Source: Miltoncostaea oceani
Lineage (GTDB): Bacteria; Actinomycetota; Thermoleophilia; Miltoncostaeales; Miltoncostaeaceae
Direction of reading: 5' to 3'
DNA: 64,000 nucleotides
Assembly: GCF_018141545.1 (NCBI RefSeq)
Contig: NZ_CP064356.1
Span: forward strand, 2,741,001 to 2,805,000
Of this stretch, positions 6,840 to 61,412 are shown in pieces. Below the pieces are notes generated by a model. That model saw nothing but the letters and a program-made list of their open reading frames with translations. It had not been told where the DNA came from and made no database searches. Both the position numbers and the translations under genes were made by a program. The number at the start of each line of letters is the position of its first letter. The first letter of the stretch is position 1.

Positions 6840-7032
6840 CCTGAAGGGACCTCGCGGTCGGGATTGGATGTTCGAGCGGGGTTCCGTCCCCTATGAGCCG
6901 GCGTCGTTCCCTGCCGGCCCTCTCTCTCTCGACTCCTGCCGCGCGATCCTTAACGGTCGGGTCACCGACGGGCGAGAAACCACCCATGCCGGCGCCCCCC
7001 GGGCGCCGTCGGCCGAGTGCACCCCGCGGCCG

Positions 7033-7440
7033 GGTCCAAGGGGCCCTCGGGGTCGGGTCCAAGTGGACCTCGGGGTCGGGTCCAAGTGTGGACCTCGGGG
7101 TCGACGCCAATTGACCAACCGGGGTCGACGGCCGAATGGGCCCCGGCGTCGACGCCAATTGGCCGATGAGTCGCCGGCCAAATGGACCTCGGCGCAAAGT
7201 CAATTGGCCGACGGGGTCGACGGCCGAATGGACCTCGGCGTCGACGCCAATTGGCCGATGAGTCGCCGGCCAAATGGACTTCGGCGCAACGTCAATTGGC
7301 CAATGAGTCGCCGGCCAAATGGACTTCGGCGCAACGTCAATTGGCCAATGAGTCGCCGGCCGAATGGACCTCGGGGTCGGCGCCATCGGCCGACCGGGCT
7401 CGACGGCCAATTGGACCTCACGCCGAGGTCCAATCGGACC
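7033..7440. repeat. 23-bp palindromic repeat array, degenerate, about 17 units
   Basis: This array fills the gap between fliS (start 6839) and glgP (stop 7515). Units begin near 7033, 7056, 7079, 7104, 7130, 7152, 7175, 7197, 7221, 7244, 7267, 7289, 7312, 7334, 7357, 7380, 7404 and 7427, so the step is 22-26 bp and mostly 23. Cores read GGTCCAAGTGGACC, GCCAATTGGCC, GGCCAAATGGACC and GGTCCAATCGGACC, all variants of GGTCCA-NN-TGGACC. Between 7244 and 7379 a 45-bp two-unit superrepeat is visible. Orientation (CCAAGTGG, spacers TCGGGGTCG) is the reverse complement of the 29.4-kb array. Positions 6840-7032 show nothing else recognisable. Confidence 0.9.
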
Positions 7441-19888: not shown

Positions 19889-21021
19889 GCCGGCACCGCC
19901 GCGGCGGCGGTGAGGCGGGCGAGGGCGGTGGCGGCGACACGCAGGTGTCCGTGGTCCGCGGCGCGTGTCGCCGCGGCGTCGCCGCGCGCGGCGCGCCCGG
20001 CGGGGTCGCGGTGGGCGTCGATGAGGGCGGCGGCGAGGGAGTCGCGGTCGGGTTCGGCCCAGCGGTGCCCCGCGTAGACGGGCACCTCGTGGACGGCGGC
20101 GGCGGGGACGTCGACGAGGCGGTGGGCGACGGGCCAGCCGACGGTGGCGTCGACGAACTCCGCCGGGCCGGACCAGGCGGTCGCGATCGCGGGGCGCCCC
20201 ATCGCCATCGCCTCCATGATCGGCCTCCCCCACCCCTCACCACGGGTCGGCGCGACGTAGACGTCGCACGCGCGGTAGAGGCCGGCCATCGCCTCCGGCG
20301 CGAGGAGGTCGTCGACGATCACGACGTCGGGGATGCGCGCCGGGTCGAACCCGAGGGCGACGATGCGCGCGCCGATCGCCCCGTGGATCGCGGCGGCGTC
20401 CATCCCGGCGGTGGTCGACCAGACCTTCAGCACCAGGGTGACGTCGTCGTCGGCGCGGAACGCGTCGCACCAGGCGGCGAGGAGGACGTCCCAGCCCTTG
20501 CGCAGCGAGAAGTCGAAGGCGGCGAGGAAGACGGTGCCGTGCGCGCCGGGGAGCGCGATCGGCGGGGCGTCGCGGTGGAGGCGGTCGAGCTCGAACGGCT
20601 CGGGGACGACGTGGAGCAGCCCGGGGTCGACGCCGGCGGCGGCGAAGGCCTCCCGGTTGTGCTCCGTGGGCACCCAGACCTCGTCGGCCCGGTTGCACGG
20701 CTCCACCCACGCGGCGGGGATGCGATCGGTCTCGAACATCGTGCGCAGCACCCGCAGCGGCGCAGGGGTCGCGAGGTCCGCGAACGGCGGGAACGTGTGC
20801 TCGACCCGGGCGTCGATGCGCGGGAGGGGTGCGCCGATGAGGCCGCCGAGCACCTGCCGGTCCTCGGGTGACAGCGCCACGCGGTTGCTCCACGCCTGCG
20901 GCTCGATCCGCACCGTCGCGCCGAGCTCGCTGAGCCCGCGCACGAACGCGCGCCCGCCGGCCGCGTACCCGGAGGGGTCGGTGAGGGGCCCGCGCCACAG
21001 CACGCCGGGGGTCGTCGCCAT
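19885..21021 (-). CDS. GT-B (family 4) glycosyltransferase
   Basis: A 378-residue cytoplasmic glycosyltransferase. The N-terminus GVLWRGPLTDPSGYAAGGRA resembles the start of the downstream fused GT, suggesting duplication. The donor-binding motif is APTRGEGWGRPIMEAMAMGR (about 261-280) with E residues in the EX7E arrangement typical of family 4. It heads the GT operon. The sigma-28-like -10 element ends only 6 bases before the ATG, so the mRNA is probably leaderless. Confidence 0.9.
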   Translation of the reverse strand: MATTPGVLWRGPLTDPSGYAAGGRAFVRGLSELGATVRIEPQAWSNRVALSPEDRQVLGGLIGAPLPRIDARVEHTFPPFADLATPAPLRVLRTMFETDRIPAAWVEPCNRADEVWVPTEHNREAFAAAGVDPGLLHVVPEPFELDRLHRDAPPIALPGAHGTVFLAAFDFSLRKGWDVLLAAWCDAFRADDDVTLVLKVWSTTAGMDAAAIHGAIGARIVALGFDPARIPDVVIVDDLLAPEAMAGLYRACDVYVAPTRGEGWGRPIMEAMAMGRPAIATAWSGPAEFVDATVGWPVAHRLVDVPAAAVHEVPVYAGHRWAEPDRDSLAAALIDAHRDPAGRAARGDAAATRAADHGHLRVAATALARLTAAAAVPA

Positions 21022-21027
21022 GGCCCC

Positions 21028-21054
21028 CCATCGGCGCGGGGACGGCGGTCTTGA
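21028..21054 (-). promoter_or_regulatory. Sigma-28-like promoter for the GT operon, leaderless start
   Basis: Minus strand: CTCAAG with core TCAA at 21051-21054, a 15-bp spacer, then GCCGATGG at 21028-21035. Six bases (GGGGCC) follow before the ATG at 21021, so transcription should begin at or beside the start codon. Confidence 0.74.
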
Positions 21055-21071
21055 GGCCCTGCGCTACCCGG

Positions 21072-22076
21072 TCAGGGCGTCACGCGCGTCATGGTGCGGT
21101 CGGACCGGCTCAGCACCCAGACGCCACGGCCGGAGGGGACGACGTCGACGGGGTCGTCCCCCACCGCCACCCGTGACGTCCCGCCGGCGCCCGAGGCGCG
21201 CCGGCTCACGACCACGCCGCGAGGGCGGCCTTGCCGGGCGACGGCCGCCCACCAGACGCGTCCGCCGCTGCGGGCGACGTCCCTCGGGTACAGCGCCCGC
21301 GGGCGGGTGCACATCTCCAGGGACCGACCGGGGCCCTCGGACGGGAGGATCGTGACGGTGCACGAGTAGCGGCGGGTGGCGTGGAGGGTCCCCGACCGGG
21401 CGGACAGCTGCCACGCCCCACCGGGGATCAGGGCCGGGACGGGGCCGTCGACGCGCTCGAGGTCCCTGGTCGGCGAGGTGCGGGCGGCCCACAGGCCCCG
21501 GCGCCCGACGGCGATCTCCACGGTCGAGTCCGTCGAGGTCGGCAACCTGCCGATCACTCGTGCATCGGCAGGGTCGACCCGGCTCACGGTCCCGGGCAGC
21601 ACCTCCTGGCCGGGGAGTGCCATCGGACGCGGCGCGCCCGTGATCCAGAGCCCCGCCGGCCCGGCGGCGACGTACGCGGCGCCGAGGGGGGCGCGGGCCG
21701 TGACGGTCGCGGTGCGGGGGTCGACGCGGACGAGGTCGCCGGTCACGGGGTCCGGCGTCCAGAGGGCGCCTCCCGCGGCCGCGATCGAGGGACGCACGAC
21801 CATCGGGACGAGGACGGGGAGGTCCCGCGGGACCCCGGTCGCGACCACGACCTCGCGGCCGGTCGGGCGTCCCGTCACGCGGTCCGTCTCGATGAGGACG
21901 CGGGTGGCGCCGCGGTCGGCGAGCACCCAGAGGTCGCCGTCCGCGACGACGCCGGCGCGTGGCTCCGCGTCGAGGCGGGCCGTGGTGACCGCCCCCTGCG
22001 CCGGCGCCGCCGCGAGCAGTGCGAGGAGCGCGACGGAGGAGGCGGCGACCGGGATCCCCATGAGGGGACCTCGCAT
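21072..22076 (-). CDS. Secreted beta-propeller-like protein
   Basis: A 334-residue protein with a signal peptide (VAASSVALLALLAAAPAQGA, cleavage after about residue 28). The mature part has repeated short beta-strand blades of the form G-LWV/VDP (DLWVLADRG, ALWTPDPVTGDLVRVDPRT, GLWITGAP, GLWAARTS, GVWVLSRSD), like YVTN/Vgb or SMP-30-type propellers. No catalytic residues are evident. The ATG overlaps the upstream PQQ-like gene's stop (ATGA). The first codons of this gene are echoed downstream of the second PQQ-like copy at about 23397, as a duplication scar. Confidence 0.75.
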   Translation of the reverse strand: MRGPLMGIPVAASSVALLALLAAAPAQGAVTTARLDAEPRAGVVADGDLWVLADRGATRVLIETDRVTGRPTGREVVVATGVPRDLPVLVPMVVRPSIAAAGGALWTPDPVTGDLVRVDPRTATVTARAPLGAAYVAAGPAGLWITGAPRPMALPGQEVLPGTVSRVDPADARVIGRLPTSTDSTVEIAVGRRGLWAARTSPTRDLERVDGPVPALIPGGAWQLSARSGTLHATRRYSCTVTILPSEGPGRSLEMCTRPRALYPRDVARSGGRVWWAAVARQGRPRGVVVSRRASGAGGTSRVAVGDDPVDVVPSGRGVWVLSRSDRTMTRVTP

Positions 22077-24540
22077 CAGGGTGTGGTCGGTGCGGTCGGC
22101 GGTGTCCGCGGATCCAGCAACGTCAGGCGATCACGGAGCGGGCCGCGCCAACCACCCCCGGCGGACACCGCCACCATGCCGTTCCGCAGCTCGGCGGCGC
22201 CGCGGACCGCGAGCCGGGTGCGCTTCTCCCAGACGGTCGTGCCGTCGGACAGGCGGGCGGCGCGCATCCCGCGCCGGGCCGCCGCGCCGATCGAGACGTA
22301 CACCCGTCCGCTGCGCCCCACCGACAGCAGACGCGACCGGTCCTCGGGCGCGGTCCGCCAGAGCTGGACGCCGGTGCTGCCCACGAACGCCGCCACCGAG
22401 GCCGACGTCGGACCGGCCGAGCCGACGTAGAGGCGGTCCCGGAGGAGGTCGACCGCCACCGCCGACGGCTCCGTCCCCTCGTTCGCCGGCAACGCCCGCC
22501 ACCACGACTCCGTGCCGTCCGGCCCCACCCCCGCCACGCCGCCGTCCCGGTACGCCACCAACCCGCTGCGGAGGCCCGCGAGAGGCTGATACCACCCCGT
22601 CCGCTGCCAGAGGAGCCTGCGGGACGCGGGATCCAGAGCGAACAGCCGCCCGGTCTCCAGGGTGCCGACCGGCTCGTAGGCGAAGAACGCGGTGTAGGCG
22701 ATTCCCGCGCCGTCGCGGACGACGATGGGCGGTGCCTCCGCACTGAAGGAGACCTCGAGCGCCGGATCGCTGACCTCCCAGAGGCCCCTCCCCGCCGCGT
22801 CGCGTGCCACGAAGACCGGCGCCGGGAGCGGCCCGGGCGGCAGGACCGGGGAGGCCCTTCCGGTCACCGAGATGCAGGTGCCGTCGGCGTCGATGACCAC
22901 ACCGGTGCAGGAACGGACCTCGCGGCCGCGGGGGTCGACGGCCCAGCTCGTGTCGCCCGTGACCCCGAGCGGCCCGTAGGTGCCGTCCGGGTTCAGCACC
23001 ACCGCCTGCAGCCCGTAGTCGCAGTTCCCGCACGCAGGGTCCGGGTGCCGGTGGGCCCAGAGCCGCCGACCGTCCCGGCGGAAGGCGGTGGCGGCGTTCG
23101 GATAGTGCTCGCCGCGGCCGAACAGCCCGCCCGAGACGACCACCACACCGCCACCCGGCCCCTGGTGGACGGTGCCGGCGGGGACCGTCTTCGGCCAGCC
23201 GGCCACCGTCGGGGGAGTCGTGGAGGCGAGGCCCGGGGCCGCGGTGGCCAGGACCGCCAGCGTGGCGAGTGCGGAGATCCGAGTGCGTGTCATGGGGCGA
23301 GCCTATGACCGCCGGAGGATCACGAACGTGATGGGAGCGGAAGAGTCGGTGAGGAGTCTGTGACGATCCCCGGGGATCCCGTGGCGCGGCCTCGCATCAG
23401 GGTGTGGTCGGTGCGGTCTGCGGTGTCCGCGGATCCAACAACGTCAGGCGATCACGGAGCGGCCCGCGCCAACCGCCCCCGGCGGACACCGCCACCATGC
23501 CGTTCCGCAGCTCGACGGCGCCGCGGACGGCGAGCCGGGTGCGCTTCTCCCAGACGGTCGTGCCGTCGGACAGGCGGGCGGCGCGCATGCCGCGCCGGCC
23601 GGCCGCGCCGATCGAGACGTACACCCGTCCGCTGCGCCCCACCGACAGCAGGCGCGACCGGTCCTCGGGAGCGGTCCGCCAGAGCTGGACACCGGTGCTG
23701 CCCACGAACGCCGCCACCGAGGCCGACGTCGGACCGGCCGACCCGACGTAGAGGCGGTCCCGAAGGAGGTCGACCGCCACCGCCGACGGCTCCGTCCCCT
23801 CGTTCGCCGGCAACGCCCGCCACCACGACTCCGTGCCGTCCGGCCCCACCCCCGCGACGCCGCCGTCCCGGTACGCCACCAGGCCGCTGCGGAGGCCCGC
23901 GAGAGGCTGATACCACCCGGTCCGCTGCCAGAGGAGCGTGCGGGACGCGGGGTCCAGAGCGAACAGCCGCCCGGCCGACCTGGCATCCACCGGCTCGGCG
24001 ACGGAGGACGCCGAGTAGACGATCCCCGCCCCGTCGCGGACCACGACGGGCGGGGCGTCCGAGCCGAAGTAGACCTCGAGCGCCGGATCGCGGACGCTCC
24101 AGAGGACCGTCCCCGCCGCGTCGCGTGCCATGAAGACCGGCGTCAGGTGCGGCCCGGGCGGCAGGACCAGGGAGGCCCTTCCGGTCACCGAGATGCAGGT
24201 GCCGTCGGCGTCGATGACCACACCGGTGCAGGAACGGACCTCGCGGCCGCGGGGGTCGACGGCCCAGCTCGTGTCGCCCGTGACCCCGAGCGGCCCGTAG
24301 GTGCCGTCCGGGTTCAGCACCACCGCCTGCAGCCCGTAGTCGCAGTTCCCGCACGCAGGGTCCGGGTGCCGGTGGGCCCAGAGCCGCCGACCGTCCCGGC
24401 GGAAGGCGGTGGCGGCGTTCGGATAGTGCTCGCCGCGGCCGAACAGCCCGCCCGAGACGACCACCACACCGCCACCCGGCCCCTGGTGGACGGTGCCGGC
24501 GGGGACCGTCTTCGGCCAGCCGGCCGCCGTTGGCGGCGAC
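22074..24540. repeat. Tandem duplication of about 1.15 kb, 1321-bp offset
   Basis: Sequence from about 22074 to 23220 (copy A) reappears at about 23395 to 24541 (copy B) with near identity. The shared part begins inside the mature N-terminus (AGWPKTVPAG) and extends a few codons past the stop, including the start of the next gene (CATCAGGGTGTGG), which became a useless remnant after copy B. A patch (about 22615-22850 against 23936-24170) is clearly more diverged than its flanks, a mosaic that suggests gene conversion or selection. Confidence 0.9.
22076..23293 (-). CDS. Secreted PQQ-like beta-propeller protein (copy A)
   Basis: A 405-residue exported protein with a signal peptide (ISALATLAVLATAAPGLAS). 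It contains PQQ/WD-like blades: AVDPRGREVRSCTGVVIDAD, LFALDPASRRLLWQRT, DGTTVWEKRT and LYVGSAGPTSASVAAFVGS, the type that binds quinones or acts as an adhesion or assembly scaffold. Cysteine pairs (CGNC, CTG/CIS) suggest disulfides outside the cell. It is nearly identical to copy B (23397-24611) except for the signal peptide and a central patch. Function is unknown. Confidence 0.78.
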   Translation of the reverse strand: MTRTRISALATLAVLATAAPGLASTTPPTVAGWPKTVPAGTVHQGPGGGVVVVSGGLFGRGEHYPNAATAFRRDGRRLWAHRHPDPACGNCDYGLQAVVLNPDGTYGPLGVTGDTSWAVDPRGREVRSCTGVVIDADGTCISVTGRASPVLPPGPLPAPVFVARDAAGRGLWEVSDPALEVSFSAEAPPIVVRDGAGIAYTAFFAYEPVGTLETGRLFALDPASRRLLWQRTGWYQPLAGLRSGLVAYRDGGVAGVGPDGTESWWRALPANEGTEPSAVAVDLLRDRLYVGSAGPTSASVAAFVGSTGVQLWRTAPEDRSRLLSVGRSGRVYVSIGAAARRGMRAARLSDGTTVWEKRTRLAVRGAAELRNGMVAVSAGGGWRGPLRDRLTLLDPRTPPTAPTTP

Positions 24541-24611
24541 GGTGGGGCGGCGGCGGCCGCGACGGATGCGGCGAGCAGCGCGGTGACCACGGCGGCGAGG
24601 ATCGTCCCCAT
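23397..24611 (-). CDS. Secreted PQQ-like beta-propeller protein (copy B)
   Basis: A 404-residue paralogue of the 22076-23293 product. The signal peptide (ILAAVVTALLAASVAAAAAP) is unrelated to that of copy A, while the mature protein is almost the same from AGWPKTVPAG onward. Differences cluster between about residues 170 and 235, where copy B reads HLTPVFMARDAAGTVLWSVR and DARSAGRLFALD. Its own upstream region differs from that of copy A, so the two may be expressed differently. It precedes the flagellin terminator region. Confidence 0.78.
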   Translation of the reverse strand: MGTILAAVVTALLAASVAAAAAPPSPPTAAGWPKTVPAGTVHQGPGGGVVVVSGGLFGRGEHYPNAATAFRRDGRRLWAHRHPDPACGNCDYGLQAVVLNPDGTYGPLGVTGDTSWAVDPRGREVRSCTGVVIDADGTCISVTGRASLVLPPGPHLTPVFMARDAAGTVLWSVRDPALEVYFGSDAPPVVVRDGAGIVYSASSVAEPVDARSAGRLFALDPASRTLLWQRTGWYQPLAGLRSGLVAYRDGGVAGVGPDGTESWWRALPANEGTEPSAVAVDLLRDRLYVGSAGPTSASVAAFVGSTGVQLWRTAPEDRSRLLSVGRSGRVYVSIGAAGRRGMRAARLSDGTTVWEKRTRLAVRGAVELRNGMVAVSAGGGWRGPLRDRLTLLDPRTPQTAPTTP

Positions 24612-24700
24612 GCGCGCACGCTACGACCGACAGGGGATTCGTTCCGTCAGGGATCCGTGAGGAAACCGGTCGTTCCCTGAGAACGCTGTGAGAACGACGC

Positions 24701-24725
24701 GGGGCCCGCCGTGATGGCGGGCCCC
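24701..24725 (-). terminator. Terminator hairpin after flagellin 1
   Basis: A perfect inverted repeat, GGGGCCCGCC-GTGAT-GGCGGGCCCC, with 10-bp arms, lies 25 bp beyond the flagellin stop. It is symmetrical and could act from both sides. There is no U tract. Confidence 0.72.
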
Positions 24726-24750
24726 GGTCGAACGCGTGCTCAGCCCTGGA

Positions 24751-25581
24751 CTAGCGGAGGAGCGAGAGGACGCTCTGCGGGGCCTGGTTGGCCTGCGCGA
24801 GCATCGCCGTGCCCGACTGCTGGAGGATCTGGTTCTTGGTGAACTTGATCATCTCCTGCGCCATGTCGGCGTCACGGATGCGGGACTCGGCGGCCTGGAG
24901 GTTCTCCGAGGTCATGCCGAGGCGGTTGATGGTGTGCTCCAGGCGGTTCTGGATGGCGCCCAGGTTCGCCCGGCTGGTGGTGACGGTGCTGATCGCGGCG
25001 TCCAGCGAGGCGATGGCCGCGCTGGCCGACGCCGCCGAGGAGACGGCGATGCCGGAGATGCCGAGGTCGGAGGCCGAGACGGTGCCGATGGTGAAGGCGA
25101 TGCTCTGCGACGCGTTGGCGCCGACCTGCAGGGTGACGGCCGACGCGGCGGTCGCGACGGACCCGGCCAGGATCTTCAGGCCGTTGAACTCCGTGTCCGT
25201 GCCGGTCTTGCCGATCTCGGTCAGGACCTGCTGGACCTCGGTGTCGAGGTTCTTGCGCTGGGCGTCGGTCAGCGTGCCGTTGGAGGCCTGGACCGCCAGG
25301 TCACGGACGCGCTGCAGCATGTCACCGACGTTGCCCAGGGCACCGTCCGCGACCTGCACCATCGAGACGCCGTCCTGCGCGTTGCGGGAGGCGACGTTCA
25401 TGCCGCGGATCTGGGAGCGCATGCCCTCAGAGACGGCGAGGCCGGCGGCGTCATCGGCCGCGCGGTTGATGCGGAGACCGCTCGACAGCCGCTCCATGGA
25501 CTTCGAGAGCTGCGTGCCGGTGTTGCTGAGGACGCGGTGCGCGTTCTGCGCCTCGACGTTGTTGTAGACGCTCAGACCCAT
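24751..25581 (-). CDS. fliC: Flagellin 1
   Basis: A 276-residue short flagellin. The conserved D0/D1 N-terminus (NNVEAQNAHRVLSNT, MERLSSGLRINRAADDAAGL) and C-terminus (ENLQAAESRIRDADMAQEM, NQILQQSGTAMLAQANQAPQ) are intact, and the central variable domain is small and Ala/Ser-rich, with many possible O-glycosylation sites. The ribosome binding site AAGGAGG (25587-25593) is near perfect and contains AGGA/AAGGA, the CsrA-binding type of sequence; csrA lies just upstream. A sigma-28-like promoter with an exact GCCGATAA -10 lies about 115-140 bp upstream. Confidence 0.98.
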   Translation of the reverse strand: MGLSVYNNVEAQNAHRVLSNTGTQLSKSMERLSSGLRINRAADDAAGLAVSEGMRSQIRGMNVASRNAQDGVSMVQVADGALGNVGDMLQRVRDLAVQASNGTLTDAQRKNLDTEVQQVLTEIGKTGTDTEFNGLKILAGSVATAASAVTLQVGANASQSIAFTIGTVSASDLGISGIAVSSAASASAAIASLDAAISTVTTSRANLGAIQNRLEHTINRLGMTSENLQAAESRIRDADMAQEMIKFTKNQILQQSGTAMLAQANQAPQSVLSLLR

Positions 25582-27710: not shown

Positions 27711-29141
27711 ATGAGGCTCCCATTCGGCTCACGTGACGACGCGGGCTCGACGCCCTGGCGGAGAAGCTGACGAGTCTCGACCGGGTCTGCCTGACGGATC
27801 TCGAGTCGGGCCTGACGGCGATGGCCGCCGGCGACTACACGGTGGCGGTGGAGCCGCACACCACGCCGATCGAAGCGGAGGCCCACGACCCGCGCGTCGC
27901 CGCCCTCGTCGAGGTCTTCAACACGATGCTGGGGCGGGCGCAGCGGGCGATCGAGGGGTACGACGCGATCCGCCGCGACCTGCGCGACGCCCTCGGCGAC
28001 CAGTCGAGCCTCGGCGCCCTCACCGACCGTCTCCGGAGCCTCGACGAGAACTGCCTCACCCGGCTCCGAGCCGGCCTGTCGGACCTCGCCGCGGGTGAGC
28101 TGACGACCGAGGTGGTCCCCGTGACGACGCCGATCACGAGCGCCGACGGCCTCCCCATCGGGTCCCTCGCGACGCGGTTCAACGGGATGCTCGACAAGGC
28201 CCAGGCCTCCATCGAGGGGTACGACGCGACGCGGCGGCAGATGCGCGACGGGGTCGGTGACCGCTCGTGCCTCGCCCCTGACGGAGCGGCTCCAGAGCCT
28301 CGACGGGAACTGCCTGACCAACCTCCGCGCCGGCCTCGGCGCCGTCGCCGGGGGCGACCTCACCCACGCCGTGACCCCCGTGACCACGCCGCTCGCGGCA
28401 TCCGGCGGGGGCTACCACGGCGCCCTCGGCGAGATCTTCAACGGCATGCTGGAGAAGGCGCAGGCCTCCATCGAGGGCTACGAGATGATGCGCGTCACCA
28501 CGGCGGAGATGATCGGCGAGATGTCGGAGACGTCGGCGACGCTGTCGGCCTCCGCCGGCCAGATGGCGACGGCGGCGGAGGAGAGCGGCCGGGCCGTCGG
28601 CGAGATCGCCGGCACCATCGAGAGCGTCGCCCGGGGCTCGTCGGACCAGGCGGGCTCGGCGCAGGCGGTGAGCAGCGCCGCCGAGGTCGCGGCCGAGGTG
28701 GTCGAGGCGCTCGGCCGCAAGAGCCAGGCGGTGGGCGACATCGTCGCGACGATCGGCGGGATCGCGTCGCAGACGAACCTGCTTGCGCTGAACGCCGCGA
28801 TCGAGGCGGCGCGGGCCGGCGAGCAGGGCCGCGGCTTCGCGGTCGTCGCGGAGGAGGTCCGCAAGCTGGCGGAGGGTTCGCAGGAGTCCGCGAGCTCGAT
28901 CAGCGAGATCATCGAGGACATCCAGGCGCAGACCGCCCGCGCCGTCGAGGCGATGGCCGCGGTCCAGCAGGACGTCTCGGCCGTCGCGTCGGTCGCGGAG
29001 GAGAACGCCGCGGCGGCGGAGCAGGTCTCGGCCTCGACCGAGGAGACGTCGGCGGCCACGGAGGAGGTCGCCGCCACCGCCGAGGAGATCGCCCGGGCCG
29101 CCGAGTCGCTCACGGCGATGGTCGCGCGCTTCACCGTCTGA
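27711..29141 (+). CDS. Soluble methyl-accepting chemotaxis protein, coding frame interrupted twice
   Basis: The gene starts at ATG 27711 with a GGAGG ribosome binding site, but the frame shifts near 27750 and again near 28275. Reading across gives three tandem HAMP-like repeats of about 90 residues (LTxLDxxCLTxLxxGL, then VxPxTTPI, then FNxMLxxAQxxIEGYD), followed by an intact MCP signalling domain (in frame from 28257) with the hairpin tip [20 protein letters not shown] and [18 protein letters not shown]. No transmembrane segment is present, so it would be a cytoplasmic chemoreceptor. Both shifts fall in GC-rich runs, so sequencing indels are as likely as a true pseudogene. Confidence 0.85.
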
Positions 29142-29391: not shown

Positions 29392-29741
29392 GGTCCACTT
29401 GGACCCGACGCCACACGGTCCACTTGGACCCGACCCCACGGTCCACTTGGACCCGACGCCACGGTCCACTTGGACGCGACCCCACGGTCCACTTGGACCC
29501 GACGCCATGGTCCACTTGGACCCGACGCCATGGTCCACTTGGACCCGACGCCATGGTCCACTTGGACCCGACGCCATGGTCCACTTGGACCCGACGCCAT
29601 GGTCCACTTGGACCCGACGCCATGGTCCACTTGGGACGATCATCCCCCGCGTGCGCTCCGGACGGATCCCCGGGATCACCGGTGCCGAGCGGGATCCGGG
29701 GCGAGGTCCAGATGGACCCACGCGCCTCGTCCGAATGGACC
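29392..29741. repeat. 23-bp palindromic repeat array, 11 regular units plus 2 outlying
   Basis: GGTCCACTTGGACC cores begin at 29392, 29417, 29440, 29463, 29486, 29509, 29532, 29555, 29578, 29601 and 29624. The step is 25 bp once, then exactly 23 bp nine times. The 9-bp spacer is CGACGCCAT in the right-hand units and CGACGCCAC or CGACCCCAC on the left. Two diverged cores, GGTCCAGATGGACC at 29705 and CGTCCGAATGGACC at 29728, are also 23 bp apart. The core is palindromic except for the central CT. The array lies between the 3' ends of two convergent genes. Because 23 is not a multiple of 3, reading frames through it are not real genes. Confidence 0.97.
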
Positions 29742-61282: not shown

Positions 61283-61310
61283 GCCCCGCGGCCCGGGCGG
61301 CGTCCCGGAT

Positions 61311-61412
61311 GGTCCACTTGGGCCTCGCGCCATGGTCCACTTGGGCTCTCACGCCACCCGCTCGGGGCGGGGAGTGGTCCACTTGGACCCGTCGTCGTGG
61401 TCCACTTGGGCC
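61311..61412. repeat. Four 23-bp-phased repeat units after ogt
   Basis: GGTCCACTTGGGCC at 61311, GGTCCACTTGGGCT at 61334 (23 bp on), GGTCCACTTGGACC at 61376 and GGTCCACTTGGGCC at 61399 (23 bp on). The orientation (CCACTTGG) and the first spacer TCGCGCCAT match the 29.4-kb array. The stretch 61283-61502 otherwise holds nothing recognisable. Confidence 0.92.

Follow-up and report, generated by a model that had tools for sequence, protein, structure and literature searches.

In a 64,000-nucleotide stretch of the Miltoncostaea oceani genome (contig NZ_CP064356.1, positions 2,741,001 to 2,805,000; hereafter the window, whose own numbering is used below), two adjacent genes, copy A and copy B, encode propeller-type proteins that are 88% identical and, judged by eye from their N-termini, exported. 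The explanation that we favor, and consider probable though well short of certain, is that A and B form a tandem pair in which the 5' part of the mature genes was homogenized by gene conversion and the adjoining patch has changed rapidly at the protein level while the copies were tuned to different partners. On the minus strand the gene order is flagellin, copy A, copy B, gene C and then glycosyltransferase genes. The comparison of A with B rests on the assembled sequence, a genome assembly of three contigs. The features referred to below, including the type of 5' end that copy A has in common with a distant paralog in the same genome (L003), are as follows:

23397-24611, minus strand: copy A, an open reading frame (ORF) of 404 amino acids; propeller-type protein (PQQ_2 / BamB-like), secreted as judged by eye
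22076-23293, minus strand: copy B, an ORF of 405 amino acids; same family as copy A
24170-24525, minus strand: 5' mature tract of copy A, read as a recent gene-conversion tract; 356 bases identical to copy B 22849-23204
22849-23204, minus strand: the same 356-base tract in copy B, from the DNA alignment
23937-24170, minus strand: diverged patch of copy A, codons 148-225, with 26 amino acid differences
22616-22849, minus strand: diverged patch of copy B, from the DNA alignment
23397-23936, minus strand: 3' part of copy A; 13/132 four-fold sites and 3 amino acids differ from copy B, the differences being mostly silent
23390-23397, minus strand: relic of the gene C start behind copy A, ATGCGAGG, 7 bases of which lie beyond the copy A stop
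24526-24696, minus strand: 5' end of copy A (upstream region and signal peptide), of the type found at L003
23205-23389, minus strand: 5' end specific to copy B (signal peptide and intergenic region, the latter 23294-23389), hardly alike to that of copy A
21072-22076, minus strand: gene C, 334 amino acids; its start overlaps the copy B stop at 22076
24751-25581, minus strand: flagellin gene adjoining copy A; a similar fragment precedes L003

The DNA alignment of the two copies falls into four zones, namely the signal peptide, an identical tract, the patch and the 3' part. Across the first 28 codons 40/84 bases differ and the upstream regions barely align, after which A 24525-24170 and B 23204-22849 run for 356 bases with zero differences up to a sharp left patch edge at codon 148. 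The patch (78 residues) holds 26 of the 29 amino acid differences that separate codons 30-403; from codon 226 onward there are 3 further amino acid differences and the remaining ones are silent. The identity between A and B extends 7 bases (23390-23396) beyond the copy A stop and then ends, and these bases with the overlapping T are the first bases of gene C. The zone edges were set after viewing the alignment, but two permutation tests are independent of them: 26 amino acid differences fall within one 79-codon window (permutation maximum 17; 5,000 permutations), and the longest run of identical four-fold sites spans 101 of 255 (permutation P = 0.001). The outline given by a first-pass annotation of this DNA, a tandem pair with near-identical mature sequence, different signal peptides and a relic of the next gene's start behind copy A, is thus borne out, with both ORFs open.

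Silent and replacement sites tell the zones apart. Silent divergence, computed inside and outside the patch, is not uniform: from codon 30 onward the 5' part differs at 0/82 four-fold sites, the patch at 5/41 and the 3' part at 13/132. By the Nei-Gojobori method there are 0 silent differences at 97.3 sites in the 5' part (codons 29-147), 9.7 at 67.3 in the patch (148-226) and 15 at 154.3 in the 3' part (227-404), with replacement differences of 1/259.7, 30.3/169.7 and 3/379.7, respectively; the sole replacement in the 5' part is codon 29, at the edge of the signal peptide. The silent deficit of the 5' part is significant (0/97 compared to 25/222 elsewhere, rounded counts; Fisher P = 1.3e-4), and a codon model using the gene's own G+C-rich codon frequencies rejected the age of the 3' part for the 5' part (likelihood-ratio statistic 2dL 24.34). 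Since silent divergence is absent there (0/82 four-fold sites compared to 18/173 in the remainder of the pair, as interlocus gene conversion leaves it), the 5' part is best read as a recent gene-conversion tract, which is far younger than its surroundings and reaches from the signal peptide, where homology ends, to the edge of the patch.

The patch, by comparison, stands out in protein only. Patch and 3' part do not differ in silent divergence (Fisher P = 0.26) but differ strongly in replacements (P = 1.6e-13), the replacement-to-silent ratio being 30:10 in the patch versus 3:15 in the 3' part (P = 4.4e-5), and the differences behind the 5' tract are unclustered (P 0.93). The codon model likewise accepted a common age of patch and 3' part (2dL 1.17) and rejected a common omega (2dL 17.06), with omega estimated at 0.62 in the patch (95% interval 0.30-1.40) and 0.039 in the 3' part (0.010-0.12). 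Because its silent divergence does not differ from that of the 3' part, the patch appears to be no older than its flank, and on these counts we take it to be neither an older nor a foreign block but a stretch in which protein changes were tolerated or favored. Once the 5' tract is set aside, all of the mature sequence including the patch shares one silent age (10-12% of four-fold sites), with homology stopping 7 bases into the gene C start, and since that common age the patch protein has changed about 16 times faster than the 3' part relative to silent sites. The first-pass annotation had described a recent duplication with a sharply diverged central patch and gene conversion on either side of it. 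The patch is indeed sharply diverged in protein, but not at silent sites; conversion is supported on its 5' side and not on its 3' side; and the duplication is recent only in a relative sense, given the 10-12% of four-fold sites that differ outside the converted tract. In this one gene pair, silent sites alone separate recent conversion, shared age and local protein acceleration, and they set right the assumption that one would naturally make first, namely that a diverged patch is necessarily old or imported; the processes are ordinary, the case unusually clean.

A whole-genome protein search for the family returned four loci, A, B and two more distant paralogs, L003 (contig 2, 46%) and L004 (contig 1, 41%). 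Diversifying selection, as proposed in the first-pass annotation, is possible, but an omega above 1 is not reached. The strongest competitor of our preferred explanation, to which we give a sizeable chance though clearly less than even, is that constraint on the patch was relaxed once the gene had been duplicated, without adaptive gain, the 5' conversion being incidental; it contests only the functional half of the explanation. Consistent with it, omega in the patch is near but not above 1, and the patch is also the fastest part when A or B is compared with L003 (replacement divergence pN 0.52 in the patch, 0.30 in the 5' part and 0.37 in the 3' part). Between L003 and L004, however, the patch evolves no faster than the rest (pN 0.40, the 5' part having 0.39 and the 3' part 0.37), and hence it is not free to vary in general; the low omega of the 3' part shows strong constraint, so neither copy is decaying; and patch positions that are invariant across 7 rows (D193, G196, Y199 and A218) are retained.

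The placement of the changes also argues against mere relaxation. In antiparallel meanders the strand connections alternate between two faces, and in the AlphaFold model of copy A (mean pLDDT 79.2, pTM 0.80) three long connections of one parity (residues 148-157, 175-189 and 203-214) carry 17 changes in 37 residues, compared to 1 in 14 in the short turns of the other parity (P = 0.010) and 8 in 28 in the strands. This preference for long loops of what may be one propeller face is suggestive only. Of the 26 changed patch sites, five outgroup rows side with A at 6 and with B at 9 and leave 11 undecided, a pattern suggesting change in both copies. Several points weigh against the adaptive interpretation. 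Fixing omega at 1 in the patch gives 2dL 1.54, so that relaxed constraint fits equally; the long-loop excess is not significant relative to strands alone (P = 0.20) and modest relative to the remaining patch residues (P = 0.030); strand residues are not depleted of changes within the patch (8/26 changes, P = 0.62); the patch loops are modeled at low confidence (pLDDT <50 at 145-155, 181-185 and 205-212), their facing is argued from strand order and the loop classes were drawn post hoc; the case for change in both copies draws on few outgroup rows, with 11/26 sites undecided; and no other searched genome has the A/B pair, so that the events cannot be ordered on a tree. A diversity-generating retroelement, a class of element that mutates adenines, was considered as the source of the patch changes and rejected, as 18/40 patch differences involve A on either side, although no search for a reverse transcriptase was made.

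The surroundings of L003 bear on how the pair arose. An 89-base flagellin fragment, identical at 84/89 positions to the flagellin of the window, precedes L003; its upstream region matches that of copy A at 75/84 aligned bases before the ATG; its signal peptide is A-like; and a copy of gene C with an internal deletion follows directly. These surroundings make it most likely that, in the single-copy state, one propeller gene with an A-type promoter and signal peptide stood between flagellin and gene C. Copy A would thus have kept the ancestral left (5') side and copy B the ancestral right (3') side, as tandem duplication gives, and the relic alone does not fix the direction of duplication, as had been claimed. 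As an observation on the signal peptides themselves, that of copy A (24526-24611; MGTILAA...) has no Arg or Lys, and those of L003 and copy B do.

Simple duplication also predicts that the 5' end of B should match that of A, which it hardly does. Divergence between the A and B signal peptides is saturated (t 16, interval 4.3-20, compared to 0.5-0.9 in the patch and 3' part), and the B upstream region aligns only weakly with those of A (P about 0.012) and L003 (P 0.036), P values that, like those given below for the region behind the relic, come from shuffles preserving single-base content only. No donor was found in the own genome (40/80 candidates scored), where the 5' end of B matched itself, the ends of the pair, a 128-base segment at 68% before and within L003 (E 3.9e-5) and shorter weak segments. 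Nor did the 42 family genomes hold a donor: matches at E <= 0.001 occurred in 8/42, the own genome included, and in the other seven they were 24-61 base pieces within the alanine-rich signal-peptide stretch (<=19 candidates scored per genome); a plasmid collection gave no match. Given the poor match to A and the lack of a donor in these searches, either the 5' end of B was captured or the pair is older and was homogenized in its mature part, and the weak similarities lean toward an older pair.

The second of these options, an old tandem pair under concerted evolution, is a tentative alternative that we rank below relaxed constraint. Here A and B would have long been distinct, each with its own promoter and signal peptide, and their mature parts homogenized twice, once from the position of B, which brought the gene C relic into A, and once in the 5' part; this differs from our preferred explanation only over the origin of the 5' end of B. 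The saturated signal-peptide divergence and the weak upstream similarities speak for it, as do a match to L003 at 17/21 bases located 7-27 before the B start, at the same place in both, and a weak gapped similarity to gene C behind the relic (P 0.0035 for the first 40 bases and 0.06 for 60), which would fit a relic that was once longer and has decayed; the single-copy order at L003 could, moreover, be a collapsed pair. Yet these similarities are weak, the match ahead of the start could reflect a common promoter motif, conversion would have to span the whole mature gene and end at the signal peptide, and an old pair was present in no genome searched. Whichever its source, the distinct promoter and signal peptide of B suggest that A and B are probably expressed or exported differently. 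No consensus promoter or terminator was found in 22000-25000.

That one copy acquired its patch through recombination with a more distant third relative, a reading also raised in the first-pass annotation, is very unlikely. The sharp left edge at codon 148 would suit it, but an imported region should be older at silent sites, and the donor would need the same silent age as the 3' part; patch silent divergence (5/41) is far below that to L003 (58/126 four-fold sites, mature part). When the genome was searched at the DNA level with either patch, the matches beyond the pair were all about 60 bases or shorter (best E 4.4e-5; 40/234 and 40/261 candidates scored), and no third close copy was present among the scored candidates. 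Hardly any credence attaches to an assembly artefact, in which the 356 identical bases would be a collapsed or copied consensus of two diverged copies: the assembly has only three contigs, both frames are open and silent differences resume evenly beyond the right edge of the tract.

Taken as a whole, the explanation that we prefer is that A and B are a tandem pair of patchily distributed, apparently secreted BamB/YxaL-like propellers between flagellin and glycosyltransferase genes. Both copies would have taken part in the change of the patch, which may form loops on one propeller face, and would each have been tuned to a partner of its own (a surface sugar, protein or other ligand), the rest being held by purifying selection and conversion; the promoter and signal peptide of B would come from another source or go back to an older tandem partner. 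Should the patch be adaptive, it would mark the binding face in a family of secreted propellers that is uncharacterized. One could go further and view the pair as a two-module diversification unit, with a propeller frame kept uniform by conversion, one loop face varying for partner recognition and a 5' module of promoter and signal peptide that is swapped as one piece, which would let every binding variant come under a different expression or export signal. We regard this as an improbable extension; were it true, the location beside flagellin and glycosyltransferase genes would make this a surface-recognition locus.

Two known situations resemble the pair in part. Duplicates in which gene conversion acts while one part stays different have been described (PMC3924837, PMC3728101), and the Innan model predicts a local divergence peak in such genes, for example red/green opsin and RHCE/RHD, with divergence in opsin exon 5 raised over low flanking introns (PMC3924837). 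A and B share with them tandem copies and a homogenized part beside a part with retained protein differences, but silent divergence in the patch is raised relative to the 5' part alone and no different from the 3' part, so that the Innan-type peak is lacking. Mosaic outer-membrane proteins of E. coli contain highly variable regions, often extracellular loops, and are defined by negative selection and local recombination among strains (PMC12175518). What they share with the pair is an exported protein that is conserved apart from one short variable block; unlike these proteins, A and B are paralogs in one genome, and their block has no silent excess and appears not to be imported.

Both copies narrowly belong to the superfamily PQQ_2 (Pfam PF13360; 28.6 bits for B and 28.4 for A, cut-off 27.6), and they are not BamB by the curated equivalog model TIGR03300 (17.3 and 14.7 bits, cut-off 285.2). 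Structure matches to the model of A were obtained with Foldseek, then VIA-align. They include YxaL (7eq5; Z 22.4, root mean square deviation (rmsd) 3.9, 300 aligned, about 21% identity), which was also matched by sequence profile (E 4.5e-10), Mycobacterium Rv3035 (9p3g; Z 21.9, rmsd 4.2, 325 aligned) and BamB (8orr; Z 21.7, rmsd 4.2, 306 aligned). YxaL of Bacillus velezensis (PDB 7eq5, 7dxn and 7evf; PMC6483160) is reportedly a secreted propeller, and the window proteins, whose export was judged by eye, may be like it in fold and secretion; the likeness to BamB and Rv3035 lies in the fold and a PQQ_2 score just over the cut-off, the difference being the BamB equivalog score far below its own. 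PQQ-dependent dehydrogenases gave fold and weak profile matches only. Because other propellers score as high, including the eukaryotic Rsa4 (4wju; Z 23.6, rmsd 5.4, 314 aligned), no function follows from the fold match to the model.

The propeller family is patchy. It occurs in 4/101 relatives, 4/399 genomes of the class (4 candidates scored per genome) and 4/42 of the family, the own genome included each time, and as stated the pair was found in none of the others. Three congeners yielded no member; two are fragmented (310 and 520 contigs) and the third, G003, is one contig, in which none was found at E <= 1e-8. Outside the class, a pattern scan of named genomes matched 87 stretches, of which 3 encode a relative; these named relatives are metagenome assemblies labeled Thermoleophilia (two) and Actinobacteria (one). 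Relative to the four copies of the window genome, the three relatives L055-L057 are extended at the C-terminus by roughly 90-100 residues (by eye), and an integrase-like gene (by eye) lies downstream of L055. Our literature search, Thermoleophilia beta-propellers included, found no report of the pair.

As a yardstick of species divergence, the window genome and G003 differ at 44/161 four-fold sites (27%) in flagellin and 81/198 (41%) in a glycosyltransferase, compared to 10-12% within the pair outside the converted tract and 46% to L003. With pair divergence well below that to G003, and provided that silent rates are comparable, the pair would have arisen, or been homogenized along its length for the last time, after the lineages of the two genomes separated. 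In G003 about 13.7 kb (L047) lie between the same flagellin and glycosyltransferase, where the window (21021-24751) has the propeller pair and gene C. Seven ORFs of this interval were scanned, of 40 listed at the locus, and 6 had matches, to an IS481-like transposase, a PEP-utilizer domain, a transporter, an aminotransferase, an ATP-grasp protein and glycosyltransferases. On this different gene content and the lack of the propeller family in G003, the flagellin-glycosyltransferase interval appears to be a variable site.

The same yardstick bears on L003 as a simple in-genome duplicate, an origin that we rejected: measured against the window at four-fold sites, gene C of its locus differs at 16/53, the flagellin fragment at 3/17 and the mature gene at 58/126, next to the 44/161 and 81/198 given above for G003, and its flagellin fragment is equally close to the flagellins of the window and of G003 (82/87 each). 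When A or B was compared with L003 and L004, the codon model gave mostly saturated values, and these were not used for ages. A related lineage may have contributed the L003 region as a fragment; alternatively, contig 2 may be foreign. In this region (L003/L050; genome G000, contig 2, about 384528-386300) the flagellin fragment, A-type upstream region, open propeller gene and deleted gene C adjoin a uracil-DNA-glycosylase-like gene, which has no counterpart in the three congeners at E <= 1e-20.

The window contains no tRNA genes. A 23-base tandem array, GGTCCACTTGGACCCGACGCCAT, lies at 29392-29634 (10.5 copies, 95%), with similar-looking units at 7017-7419 and 61309-61356; array and units may belong to a dispersed family of repeats whose core is palindromic. 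Within a gene of chemoreceptor-like sequence (by eye), positions 27950-28483 form a tandem duplication of 259 bases (75% matches).

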